A DNA stretch of 64,000 bases from Candidatus Fusobacterium pullicola. Lineage in GTDB: Bacteria; Fusobacteriota; Fusobacteriia; Fusobacteriales; Fusobacteriaceae. The position numbers were made by a program, and so were the translations under genes. The stretch lies in NCBI GenBank assembly GCA_018883725.1, contig JAHLFN010000068.1, positions 1 through 64,000 on the forward strand, in the 5' to 3' direction. Below, piece by piece: positions 8,660-60,130 of the stretch. The notes under the pieces were generated by a model that worked only from the letters and a program-made list of their open reading frames with translations, was not told where the DNA came from and searched no databases. The stretch's first letter is position 1. Each line of letters begins with the position of its first letter.

Positions 8660-9205
8660 ATGAGATTATTTATTATTTCTGATATTCATGGGTCACTTTA
8701 TTACTTGAAAAAAGCGATAGAGATATTTGAAAAGGGAGGGTATGATAAATTAGTAATATTAGGAGATGAATTATATCATGGACCTAGAAATCCTTTACCA
8801 AAGGATTACTCTCCTAAGGATGTAATAGAGATTTTGAATAGCTATAAAGACAGGATTATAGCAATAAGAGGGAATTGTGATAGTGAAGTTGATCAAATGG
8901 TTTTAAAGTATCCGATTATGAGTGACTATACTATGATATATTTAGGTGGAAGAAGAGTCTATCTAACACATGGTCATATATATAATATGGACAATCCTCT
9001 TCATATGTCAGAAGGAGATATTATGCTATATGGTCATTTTCATATACCAATGTTAGAAAAAAAAGATGGAAAATACTTTTTAAATCCAGGTTCGATCTCA
9101 TTACCTAAAAATGGAAGTAAAAATAGTTTTGCTATTTTAGATGAAGAGAAATTTGAAATTAGAGATTTAGAGGAAAATATCTTATTTCAGGGGTATTTTA
9201 ATTAG
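8660..9205 (+). CDS. YfcE-like metallophosphodiesterase
   Basis: A 181-residue calcineurin-like phosphoesterase. Metal-binding motifs appear in order: DIH (8-10), GDELYHGPRN, GNCD, LTHGH and YGHFH, then NPGSISLPK. This matches E. coli YfcE, which hydrolyses phosphodiesters in vitro with Mn2+; the cellular substrate is not known. An upstream in-frame ATG at 8630 exists but lies in the terminator hairpin. The start at 8660 follows AAAGGAGGAG directly and gives the normal family length. Confidence 0.88.
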   Translation: MRLFIISDIHGSLYYLKKAIEIFEKGGYDKLVILGDELYHGPRNPLPKDYSPKDVIEILNSYKDRIIAIRGNCDSEVDQMVLKYPIMSDYTMIYLGGRRVYLTHGHIYNMDNPLHMSEGDIMLYGHFHIPMLEKKDGKYFLNPGSISLPKNGSKNSFAILDEEKFEIRDLEENILFQGYFN

Positions 9206-9264
9206 TAGATAAACGGTTTTAAAACATATTTTTAATAAAAATTTTGAGAAATAAATAAAAAGAC

Positions 9265-9293
9265 TTACAATTATTTGAAAAGTATGTTACAAT
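9265..9293 (+). promoter_or_regulatory. Promoter for the DEAD-box helicase leader
   Basis: TTACAA (9265-9270), a 17-base spacer, then TACAAT (9288-9293) with an upstream TG (extended -10). It predicts transcription from about 9300, leaving a leader of some 185 bases before the start codon. Confidence 0.55.
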
Positions 9294-9337
9294 ATATCAT
9301 ACTGTATAAAAAAATATAGGATTATTCTCTGAATTAT

Positions 9338-9480
9338 AAATTAATAAAAAATTTATTAATCTTTTTATCCGCTAAATGCTTATATAAAATTTGAACAGAG
9401 GGGATTCCTATAATAAAACAGTTATCATTATATTATAGGACACTGCGGTGTTTAATGATGAATTTTAGATTATAAGGACG
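9338..9480 (+). promoter_or_regulatory. Long structured 5' leader of the DEAD-box RNA helicase
   Basis: Three structures can be drawn. (1) ATTAATAAA (9340-9348) pairs with TTTATTAAT (9352-9360), followed by CTTTTTAT: a weak, all-A/U terminator-like hairpin. (2) CCTATAAT (9407-9414) pairs with ATTATAGG (9432-9439). (3) Directly adjacent, ACAC (9440-9443) pairs with GTGT (9448-9451) around TGCG, a UNCG-type tetraloop. The loop of hairpin 2 contains ATCATTA (9424-9430), which is complementary to TAATGAT (9453-9459) after hairpin 3, so a pseudoknot is possible. No known riboswitch class was recognised. Long leaders of this kind are known on cold-shock RNA helicase genes. Confidence 0.5.
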
Positions 9481-9486
9481 TGAATA

Positions 9487-11133
9487 ATGGAAAAATTAGA
9501 AAAGTTTAGAGAATTAGGGTTGAGTGAAAAAACATTAAAGGCTTTGGCAAAAAAGGGATATGAGCAACCAACTCCAATACAAGCTTTAACAATACCAGCT
9601 CTTTTAAATGGAGATAAAGATATAATAGGACAGGCTCAAACTGGAACAGGAAAAACAGCTGCTTTTTCTTTACCAATTTTAGAAAACTTTGAAGCTGATA
9701 AGAATATTCAAGCAATTGTATTAGCTCCAACTAGAGAGCTTGCACTACAAGTAGCAGAGGAGATGAACAGTCTAGCTCATGGTAAAAAAATAAGAATAAC
9801 TCCTGTTTATGGTGGGCAATCTATAGAGTTTCAAATCAGACAATTAAAAAAGGGAACTGATATAATAGTAGGAACTCCTGGAAGAGTTATGGATTTAATG
9901 GATAGAAAGTTAATAAAACTTCGAAATCTTAAATACTTTATTCTAGACGAAGCTGATGAGATGTTAAATATGGGATTCGTAGAGGATATAGAGAAAATTT
10001 TAGAAGCTACAAATGAGGATAAGAGAATGTTATTTTTCTCAGCAACTATGCCTAATGAGATAATGAAAATAGCAAAAAATCATATGAAAGATTATGAGGT
10101 ATTAGCTGTAAAAGCAAGAGAGCTAACTACAGATTTAACTGACCAGATATACTTCGAGGTACAGGAGAAAGATAAGTTTGAAGCACTATGTAGAATAATA
10201 GATTTAACTAGAGATTTCTATGGAATAGTATTCTGTCGTACAAAAAATGATGCTAATGATTTAGTTGGAAAATTAAATGATAGAGGGTATGATGCTGAAG
10301 GACTACATGGTGATATCAGCCAAAACTATAGAGAGGTTACATTAAAAAGATTTAAAGCTAAGAAGATAAATGTTCTTGTAGCTACAGATGTAGCAGCAAG
10401 AGGAATAGATGTAAACGATCTATCACATGTTATCAACTATTCTATACCACAAGAGGCTGAAAGCTATGTACATAGAATAGGAAGAACTGGAAGAGCTGGA
10501 AAAGAGGGAACAGCAATAACTTTTATAACTCCACAAGAGTATAGAAAATTACTTCAAATTCAAAGAATAGTAAAAACTGAGATAAGAAAAGAGAGAGTTC
10601 CTGAGATAAAAGATGTAATTCAAGCTAAAAAGTTTAGATTAATGGAAGAGTTAAATATGATTTTAGCTGAGGGAAATTATGATAACTTTAAAGATTTTGC
10701 AAAAGAGTTATTAAATGGAGAGCAAGCTTTAGATATAGTAGCTGCACTATTAAAACATGCTTATGATGATATATTAGATGAAAATAATTACAATGAGATA
10801 AGTGAAGTTAAATTAGAAAAATCTGGAAAAGTTAGATTATTTATAGCTTTAGGAAGAAAAAATGCAATGACTCCTAAAAAACTTGTTGATTATGTAATAA
10901 AGAGATCTAAAGTTGATGATAGAAAGATAAAAAATGTAGAGGTATTTGAAAACTTCTCATTTATGTCTGTTCCTTTTACAGAAGCTGAGATAATATTAGA
11001 AGCTTTCCAAAAAGAAAAAAATGGTAAAAAACCTCTTGTTGAAAAAGCAAAGGATAAATCTGAAGAGGGAAGTAGCAAATCAAAATCTGGAAAAGATAGA
11101 GCTAAAAAAAGAAAAAAAGATAATCAAGAGTAG
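9487..11133 (+). CDS. DEAD-box ATP-dependent RNA helicase with DbpA-type RNA-binding domain
   Basis: A 548-residue RNA helicase of the DeaD/CsdA/CshA group. It shows the Q motif (GYEQPTPIQ), motif I AQTGTGKT (50-57), PTRELA, TPGR, DEAD (154-157), SAT (185-187), ATDVAARGID and HRIGRTGR. A linker leads to a DbpA/CsdA-type RRM-like domain (about 450-520; VRLFIALGRKNAMTPKKLVDYV), then a Lys/Ser-rich basic tail. Such enzymes unwind RNA in ribosome assembly and mRNA decay, especially in the cold. It stands alone between its own promoter and a strong terminator. The exact orthologue (deaD versus cshA) is not decided here. Confidence 0.94.
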   Translation: MEKLEKFRELGLSEKTLKALAKKGYEQPTPIQALTIPALLNGDKDIIGQAQTGTGKTAAFSLPILENFEADKNIQAIVLAPTRELALQVAEEMNSLAHGKKIRITPVYGGQSIEFQIRQLKKGTDIIVGTPGRVMDLMDRKLIKLRNLKYFILDEADEMLNMGFVEDIEKILEATNEDKRMLFFSATMPNEIMKIAKNHMKDYEVLAVKARELTTDLTDQIYFEVQEKDKFEALCRIIDLTRDFYGIVFCRTKNDANDLVGKLNDRGYDAEGLHGDISQNYREVTLKRFKAKKINVLVATDVAARGIDVNDLSHVINYSIPQEAESYVHRIGRTGRAGKEGTAITFITPQEYRKLLQIQRIVKTEIRKERVPEIKDVIQAKKFRLMEELNMILAEGNYDNFKDFAKELLNGEQALDIVAALLKHAYDDILDENNYNEISEVKLEKSGKVRLFIALGRKNAMTPKKLVDYVIKRSKVDDRKIKNVEVFENFSFMSVPFTEAEIILEAFQKEKNGKKPLVEKAKDKSEEGSSKSKSGKDRAKKRKKDNQE

Positions 11134-59880: not shown

Positions 59881-59892
59881 AATAGTAAAAGC

Positions 59893-60059
59893 AAGATAGA
59901 GGAGCAAATGACAGGAGTAAAAATATATAGCTTGGCAGGCGTTATGATATTTTGAAAGGGGAATTTGCCGAAATGGAAGAGAGAGCTAAACTCTTTTGTT
60001 GGCAATGTGGATAATATTTACATTGTTGTCATTGAATTTTTTCAGTGGAGAGCTATCTG
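59893..60059 (+). promoter_or_regulatory. Lysine riboswitch (L-box) aptamer
   Basis: The conserved blocks of the lysine riboswitch appear in order: AGAGGAGC (59898-59905), AGTA (59916-59919), GAAAGGGGAA (59954-59963), GCCGAAAT (59967-59974), TTGTTGTCATT (around 60023-60032) and GTGGAGAGC (60045-60053). AGATAG (59894-59899) pairs with CTATCT (60053-60058) to close P1. Spacing and order are those of the L-box class, which senses free L-lysine and usually turns genes off. Confidence 0.9.
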
Positions 60060-60130
60060 TGAGAATAAGAGAGGGATTATTTTATCTTTTTTGTAATTTA
60101 TCACAGTTTAGTCAGCTGTGATTTTTTTAT
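60057..60130 (+). terminator. Riboswitch expression platform: terminator and competing antiterminator
   Basis: ATCACAG (60100-60106) pairs with CTGTGAT (60116-60122), with extra G-U and A-U pairs inside, followed by a T run (TTTTTTATTTT): a rho-independent terminator. CTGTGA at 60057-60062 overlaps the 3' strand of aptamer P1 and is also perfectly complementary to TCACAG (60101-60106). So without lysine an antiterminator can form; with lysine, P1 forms and the terminator stops transcription. Confidence 0.8.

Follow-up and report, generated by a model that had tools for sequence, protein, structure and literature searches.

The helicase gene and its leader

The window, the whole 64-kb stretch of AT-rich DNA that was analysed, is part of genome G000 (1.94 Mb, 87 contigs) and carries a gene for a DEAD-box RNA helicase preceded by a long leader. 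The features of the locus are listed in Table 1. The gene product matched the Pfam domains DEAD (1e-51), Helicase_C (5e-33) and DbpA (2e-15), and its best NCBIfam model was that of the degradosome helicase CshA, with 560.8 bits, under the cut-off of 646. The helicase was found in all 12 genomes of the window's genus and, with E <= 1e-100, in 57 of the 61 genomes of the family. In G009 (L022/L023) the helicase matches 4-382 and 378-530 are not in the same frame, indicating that the gene or its sequence is frameshifted.

Eleven leaders of this one genus were compared, which in effect represent two clades: clade A (G000, G001, G002, G004 and G005) and clade B (G006, G011 and G007-G010). Genome G003, of the same species as G000, was not counted among the leaders, since over 120 bases its leader does not differ from that of G000. 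A collection of named genomes gave 80 helicase loci, three of them titled Fusobacteriaceae or Psychrilyobacter and none from the window's genus, and the viral contigs searched for more leaders gave two distant helicases and no leader. No article naming a helicase leader in Fusobacterium was found in a literature search that lay outside subscription papers and preprints.

Promoter boxes CTTACA/TTTACA and TACAAT/TATAAT, nearly identical and with an equal spacing of 18 bases, were present upstream of all 11 leaders; the identity of the promoter between the two clades was 0.76 (shuffled, 0.55). These conserved boxes place the start, predicted and not mapped, near position 9300 and thus give a leader of about 187 bases. 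Counted from just after the -10 box, the leaders were 183 to 234 bases long. The promoter and the Pfam domains uphold the initial annotation of a structured leader of about 185 bases before a DEAD-box helicase, an arrangement that characterizes the helicase-autoregulation type of Caulobacter rhlE. The leader also lay, as had been proposed, outside the known riboswitch classes: no Rfam family matched the window leader or 14 related loci at the gathering score, nor positions 9150-9600 at E values up to 5. The sole Rfam match in the window was a lysine riboswitch (RF00168, 113.9 bits) at 59889-60063.

In the other genera where the DNA upstream of the helicase was read, some leaders were long and unrelated, and the others short, to judge by eye from a promoter-like box located about 20-50 bases upstream of the ribosome-binding site. 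The helicase leaders L074 and L075 of genus g11 carry a hairpin resembling TATCTAG..GCTA / TAGC..CTAGATA, kept between two genomes, and L059 (genus g13) is also long and contains ATGCAT and CTAATG/CATTAG repeats.

Table 1. Coordinates of the features at the helicase locus (positions of the window). P1, P3 and P4 are predicted helices.
Feature	Position	Strand	Remarks
Promoter	9264-9293	+	-35 box CTTACA (9264-9269), 18-base spacer, -10 box TACAAT (9288-9293); predicted start near 9300
P1c 5' strand, ACTG	9301-9304	+	Pairs with 9419-9422; GTAG/CTAC in clade B; 43/44 cells paired
P1b 5' strand (strand I), TATAGGA	9315-9321	+	Pairs with 9406-9412; 69/77 cells paired
P1a 5' strand, TTCTCTG	9325-9331	+	Pairs with 9396-9402; 69/77 cells paired
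A/U-only hairpin with T run, in the P1 loop	9340-9366	+	Stem 9340-9348/9352-9360, then CTTTTT
CCGCTAAA	9369-9376	+	Conserved, reading CCG(C/T)T(A/G)AA in 11/11 leaders (alignment); within the P1-enclosed domain
P1a 3' strand, CAGAGGG	9396-9402	+	From the leader comparison
Strand II, TCCTATAAT(A)	9406-9415	+	P1b 3' strand and P3 5' strand; complementary in clade A to the ribosome-binding site as well
P1c 3' strand, CAGT	9419-9422	+	Inside the otherwise variable P3 loop; CAG invariant in clade A
Strand III, TATTATAGGA	9431-9440	+	3' strand of P3; pairs with 9406-9415
P4, small hairpin ACAC-TGCG-GTGT	9440-9451	+	Stem of 3-4 bp drawable in 11/11 leaders (by eye); loop of 4 to about 44 bases
ATTATAAGGA with ribosome-binding site	9469-9478	+	Third possible partner of strand II; beyond UCCU/AGGA in clade A only
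DEAD-box RNA helicase gene	9487-11133	+	548 aa; C-terminal DbpA RNA-binding domain

Alternative helices P1 and P3

Together with the promoter and the conservation of the leader, comparison of the 11 leaders showed two putative helices, P1 and P3, which exclude each other. Hairpin P3 had been described initially as an 8-bp stem (CCTATAAT, 9407-9414, with ATTATAGG, 9432-9439); letters and coordinates are right, but the stem really has 10 bp (9406-9415/9431-9440). Since 99 perfect 8-bp hairpins with loops of 3-20 bases occur on the + strand of the window, or 0.29 per 187 bases, such a hairpin in the leader is unremarkable; perfect 10-bp hairpins numbered 20 in the window. Folding of the whole leader barely exceeded that of shuffled sequences (z -1.66; 9 of 200 shuffles). 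As the hairpin does not go beyond chance, and with this z value for the fold, the case for the leader rests on comparison.

P3 was kept in 11 of 11 leaders, with 106 of 110 cells paired and a constant loop of 14-15 bases, the sequence of which is largely unconserved; the 3' strand of P1c lies in the conserved bits of the loop, CAG of clade A and CTACAA of clade B. Strand II (TCCTATAAT, 9406-9414) is identical in all 11 leaders, as expected for a strand with two partners. The changes in P3 are U-A to U-G at three positions and A-U to G-U, with one pair lost in G007-G010; they appear consistent with pairing but are not compensatory. Conservation across the orthologous leaders thus holds for the annotated hairpin, but covariation does not, as the shuffle test on the 11 leaders gave nothing beyond shuffles.

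The initial annotation contained neither P1 nor the two mutually exclusive conserved partners of the 5' strand of the hairpin. P1 is a three-part helix of 9301-9331 with 9396-9422, whose start roughly coincides with the predicted +1 in each clade. In clade A it consists of ACUG:CAGU, UAUAGGA:UCCUAUA and UUCUCUG:CAGAG(G/A)(G/A), and in clade B of GUAG:CUAC, (U/C/G)AUAGG(A/U):UCCUAUA and UUCUUUG:CAGAGAA, with a slipped form in G007-G010. To judge from the aligned sequences, P1 shows compensatory changes between the clades (ACUG:CAGU against GUAG:CUAC), and one P1a pair varies as C-G, U-G and U-A across the genus. P1b adds nothing to the covariation because its 3' strand never changes, and the pairing of the P1c columns is our choice of register, given that the P1c offsets differ slightly between clades. 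At the 5' end of the clade A leaders, and only there, a small hairpin (9302-9307 with 9314-9319) is possible even without P1.

With the P1a register of G007-G010 and the P1c columns set by hand, 181 of 198 P1 cells were paired and the covariation score was 0.291 against 0.167 in shuffled alignments, reached by none of 2000 shuffles that keep relatedness in; four pairs changed on both sides, a count reached by 416 of the 2000. The CM-fitted alignment, which leans towards the structure to which it was fitted, had 88.5% of the P1 cells paired, against 46-55% when slid, and a covariation score of 0.195 against 0.149 ± 0.013 (0 of 500 shuffles). The duplex formed by the own strands of P1 ranged from -15.6 to -19.9 kcal/mol in the 11 leaders; swapped between clades, duplexes averaged -16.4 with the clade A 5' strand and -12.5 with the clade B 5' strand and the clade A 3' strand. 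The own value was reached by 0-2 of 300 shuffles in 10 of the 11 leaders and by 15 of 300 in G002. When the 11 loci were searched with a covariance model made only from clade B leaders, all five clade A leaders were found, with 17-40 bits.

P1 and P3 cannot coexist, because P1b and P3 use the same bases, and the leader would thus be bistable. Strand II has two conserved partners, strand I in P1 and strand III in P3, in 11 of 11 leaders, both partners containing the heptamer TATAGGA (at 9315 and 9434); a conserved strand able to pair with either of two rivals looks like an expression switch. In the window leader, the predicted populations at 37 °C were 0.16 for P1, 0.36 for P3 and 0.39 for strand II on the ribosome-binding site. 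The predicted dominant fold was P1 in G004, G005, G006 and G011 and P3 in G001 and G002, while three states share G000; in G007-G010 neither helix appeared in the predicted ensemble, the better one lying 5-7 kcal/mol above. This disagreement among predicted populations argues against taking the energies at face value, and nearest-neighbour predictions perform poorly on AU-rich leaders containing an inserted loop and take no account of co-transcriptional folding. A further pairing, P5, of strand III with a downstream ATGATGAAA stretch, is drawable in clade B; it was rejected, being no better than strand swaps.

Just downstream of P3, a UNCG hairpin and a pseudoknot had been annotated. The hairpin (P4) is present and has A9440 in common with P3, but its loop is of the UNCG kind in only two of the 11 leaders (TGCG, TACG) and is not a conserved part. 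In G007-G010 (L021, L019, L022 and L020) the P4 loop has about 40 extra bases, with the ACAC/GTGT stem kept. The complementarity on which the pseudoknot was based, ATCATTA (9424-9430) with TAATGAT (9453-9459), was read correctly, but the pairing is private to the window's species. Even in the window leader the pairing of the loop with downstream sequence was matched by 68 of 300 shuffles (z -0.6), and in the other 10 leaders 120-272 of 300 did as well (z -0.2 to +1.2). Against everything downstream, the own pairs of the loop gave -2.0 to -7.1 kcal/mol in the 11 leaders (mean -4.2), and -2.0 to -5.3 in the 10 besides that of the window, and did not exceed the stability of interspecies swaps (group means -4.3 to -6.1). 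The pseudoknot, unconserved in the other 10 leaders and no better there than strand swaps or shuffles, was dropped; in spite of seven perfectly complementary bases in the window's own sequence, a compact functional pseudoknot just before the start codon is extremely improbable.

The early termination that had been suggested at the A/U hairpin was not supported. The stem consists of A-U pairs with no G-C pair, and a terminator scan of 9150-9550 found no site, so that no attenuator of the intrinsic-terminator kind was recognized; the early-terminator idea is weak.

Segment conservation and distribution

For the comparison of segments, a script divided the leaders at fixed offsets, clade B being represented by G006, G011 and G007. 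The 17-base strand with TCCTATAAT at its end was 0.85 identical between the clades, and strand III 0.83, against 0.49 for the P3 loop (shuffled, 0.48). Identity was 0.61 for the P1b/P1a 5' strand (shuffled, 0.48), 0.61 for the P1-enclosed domain (shuffled, 0.55) and 0.49 for the tail (shuffled, 0.46). The 80 bases preceding the promoter reached 0.57 (shuffled, 0.55). Within clade A the values were 0.93 for the 5' strand, 0.84 for the P1-enclosed domain and 0.59 for both the P3 loop and the upstream DNA.

In the P1-enclosed domain, a clade B stem, P2 (TACATTT/AAATGTA vs GATATTT/AAATATC), looks compensatory but involves different alignment columns and was discarded. A three-codon frame (ATG, two codons and a stop) lies at 9375-9389 in six of the 11 leaders, with TTG in G005 and no such frame in G007-G010; no ribosome-binding site was seen before it by eye in the 11 leaders. 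At the inner end of P1, the largely conserved GAACAG (9393-9398) is the reverse complement of CUGUUC, a sequence that we place in the A-loop hairpin of 23S rRNA, to which DbpA domains bind.

A covariance model of the leader (R1) gave matches with E <= 1 in 13 of the 61 family genomes, including 10 of the 12 genomes of the genus, in each of them at the helicase leader; G002 and G004, missed in the genome search, scored 17.3 and 23.7 bits when searched locally. Weak single matches were obtained in G015, G020 and G059 (E 0.37-0.81), as well as a second match in G006 (0.51). A three-strand pattern matched the helicase leader of 11 of the 12 genus genomes, being missed in G004, which has TGGG, and also occurred in five of 84 other genomes of the order, where it was taken as chance. 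Extra matches to the pattern occurred once each in G000 and G003 and once on the other strand in G002; a second copy of the leader at G000:C19 or G003:C272 was rejected, as these weak matches look like AT-rich chance. By these searches, within the family the element appears to precede only the helicase gene and only in the window's genus.

Proposed function and comparison with known systems

The leader is tentatively interpreted as a bistable cis-regulatory RNA, in which the helicase, or cold through a lack of helicase activity, may shift the balance between P1 and P3 and thereby set the fate of its own mRNA; this reading is quite possible, though short of probable. The most likely purpose of the leader is autoregulation by the helicase, as a negative feedback on its own mRNA through this balance. 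Helicases controlling their own mRNA are on record (Caulobacter rhlE, CrhR), for which reason feedback by the helicase on its own leader is proposed. In the first fold, the first ~30 bases of the mRNA would pair with 9396-9422 (P1), tying up the 5' end and enclosing a conserved domain of about 65 bases; in the second, strand II would leave P1 and pair with strand III in hairpin P3. P1 could form first during transcription, and strand III would compete by branch migration through the shared heptamer TATAGGA. With ample helicase, P1 would be opened and the RNA would settle in P3, exposing its 5' end to decay, and the clade A strand II could also reach the ribosome-binding site; with scarce helicase, P1 would persist and the mRNA would be kept and translated. 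The regulatory output is not obvious, because P1 and P3 both leave the ribosome-binding site free, but mRNA decay is the more likely one, since P1 ties up the 5' end. A difference in expression between the two folds, a role of the helicase in driving the change and an output through decay instead of translation are all inferred.

A wider and rather doubtful extension is that helicase activity is sensed by the leader RNA itself. P1 would be a built-in substrate, strand III would capture strand II after opening and the P1/P3 ratio would report free helicase, unrelated leaders that close the 5' end having arisen in other Fusobacteriota such as Psychrilyobacter.

In clade A, the chief functional rival of a decay output is a translational one. 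Strand II would act as an anti-ribosome-binding-site strand that, when free, prevents translation by pairing with ATTATAAGGA (9469-9478), P1 and P3 both keeping translation on. The clade A duplex of strand II with the site has 9-10 pairs and one bulge (-6.1 to -6.6 kcal/mol), G005 keeping it through a U-G pair, and it is the predicted minimum in the window leader (39% of the ensemble); the closing helix of Psychrilyobacter likewise has an anti-ribosome-binding-site-like UCCU in its 3' strand in four of six leaders. However, clade B has only four pairs (-4.2 to -4.5 kcal/mol), and in 10 of the 11 leaders the predicted population at 37 °C is <= 0.1%, which leaves such a switch unlikely. It is also somewhat unlikely that the leader is an ordinary AU-rich structured 5' UTR with no switch, P1 being a constitutive stabiliser of the mRNA and P3 incidental. 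The absence of covariation in P3, fold energies barely above those of shuffles and the sufficiency of a short leader in other genera would suit this; against it, strand III is conserved between clades (0.83), unlike the preceding loop and the tail that follows, and the differences in strand III mostly keep P3.

Other readings account for single features of the leader. Strand II contains a perfect TATAAT (9409-9414) in 11 of 11 leaders and might be conserved as the -10 box of a second, internal promoter, which we regard as improbable: the best -35 sequences have only 3-4 of 6 matches at spacings of 15-19, with differing sequences and spacings, strands I and III would be left unexplained, and the upstream promoter is conserved in all 11. 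The closed domain, its conserved core motif and an alternative fold correspond to the usual layout of a riboswitch, in which the P1-enclosed domain with CCG(C/T)TAAA would bind a small molecule and stabilise P1 against P3; with no Rfam match, a restriction to one gene of one genus and an enclosed domain hardly more identical between clades than when shuffled (0.61 vs 0.55), a ligand-binding riboswitch is very improbable. Much the same low probability is given to a temperature sensor of the cspA kind, in which cold would change the fold, and thereby translation, without a protein. The helicase class is linked to cold by analogy with the accessible part of one report (PMC5472812), and the rival folds are close in energy in some leaders. 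However, the predicted shifts between 37 and 20 °C differed in direction among the 11 leaders and by species, and opening of the ribosome-binding site was inconsistent, so the folding predictions do not support a simple thermometer.

Control of DEAD-box helicase levels in bacteria is known in few cases, and the pathways that set these levels were called not well characterized in the available text of one study (PMC3485376). The leader offers a small comparative model with named strands, in which point mutations could lock either fold, and self-sensing by the helicase is directly testable.

The E. coli cspA mRNA is reportedly a thermosensor with a long leader, belonging to a cold-linked gene and having two possible folds; for the window leader no consistent temperature shift was predicted. 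The helicase leaders of Psychrilyobacter (L078, L079, L160, L161, L162 and L166; genus g14) also belong to an orthologous gene, are long and have a long-range helix from near the 5' end, but they show no sequence similarity to the window leader and their helix stops about 13 bases short of the ribosome-binding site. In G057 the changes in this closing helix are still paired (AAGGUGGA/UCCUGCCUU vs AAGGUGAU/AUCACCUU). These leaders are almost identical in five of six genomes, the sixth changing on both sides of the helix and still pairing; two of the loci, tested against Rfam, gave no match.

In Helicobacter pylori, the rnj leader is controlled by RNase J and the helicase RhpA, as far as the accessible part of the article goes (PMC5874925); degradosome parts feed back on a 5' UTR there too, but the regulated gene is the nuclease and not the helicase. 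The cyanobacterial helicase CrhR autoregulates its own expression (PMC3485376): according to the available text, the Synechocystis crhR gene shares with the present one an RNA helicase product and autoregulation, transcriptional and post-transcriptional and with temperature, but no RNA element is defined in that text, from which the words UTR and leader are absent. In Caulobacter crescentus, rhlE encodes a cold-induced DEAD-box helicase. In the part of that report available (PMC5472812), its leader was tested by experiment, that of the window by comparison only; no conserved rival helices are described in that part, and the helicase belongs to another phylum and another subfamily. The two leaders are alike in preceding a DEAD-box helicase gene, in length (186 nt against about 187 here) and in their predicted stem-loops. 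By the same partial source, the structured 186-nt 5' UTR of rhlE is required for full expression, reporter expression is higher in the rhlE null mutant, and expression fusions suggest that this helicase regulates its own mRNA levels (PMC5472812).
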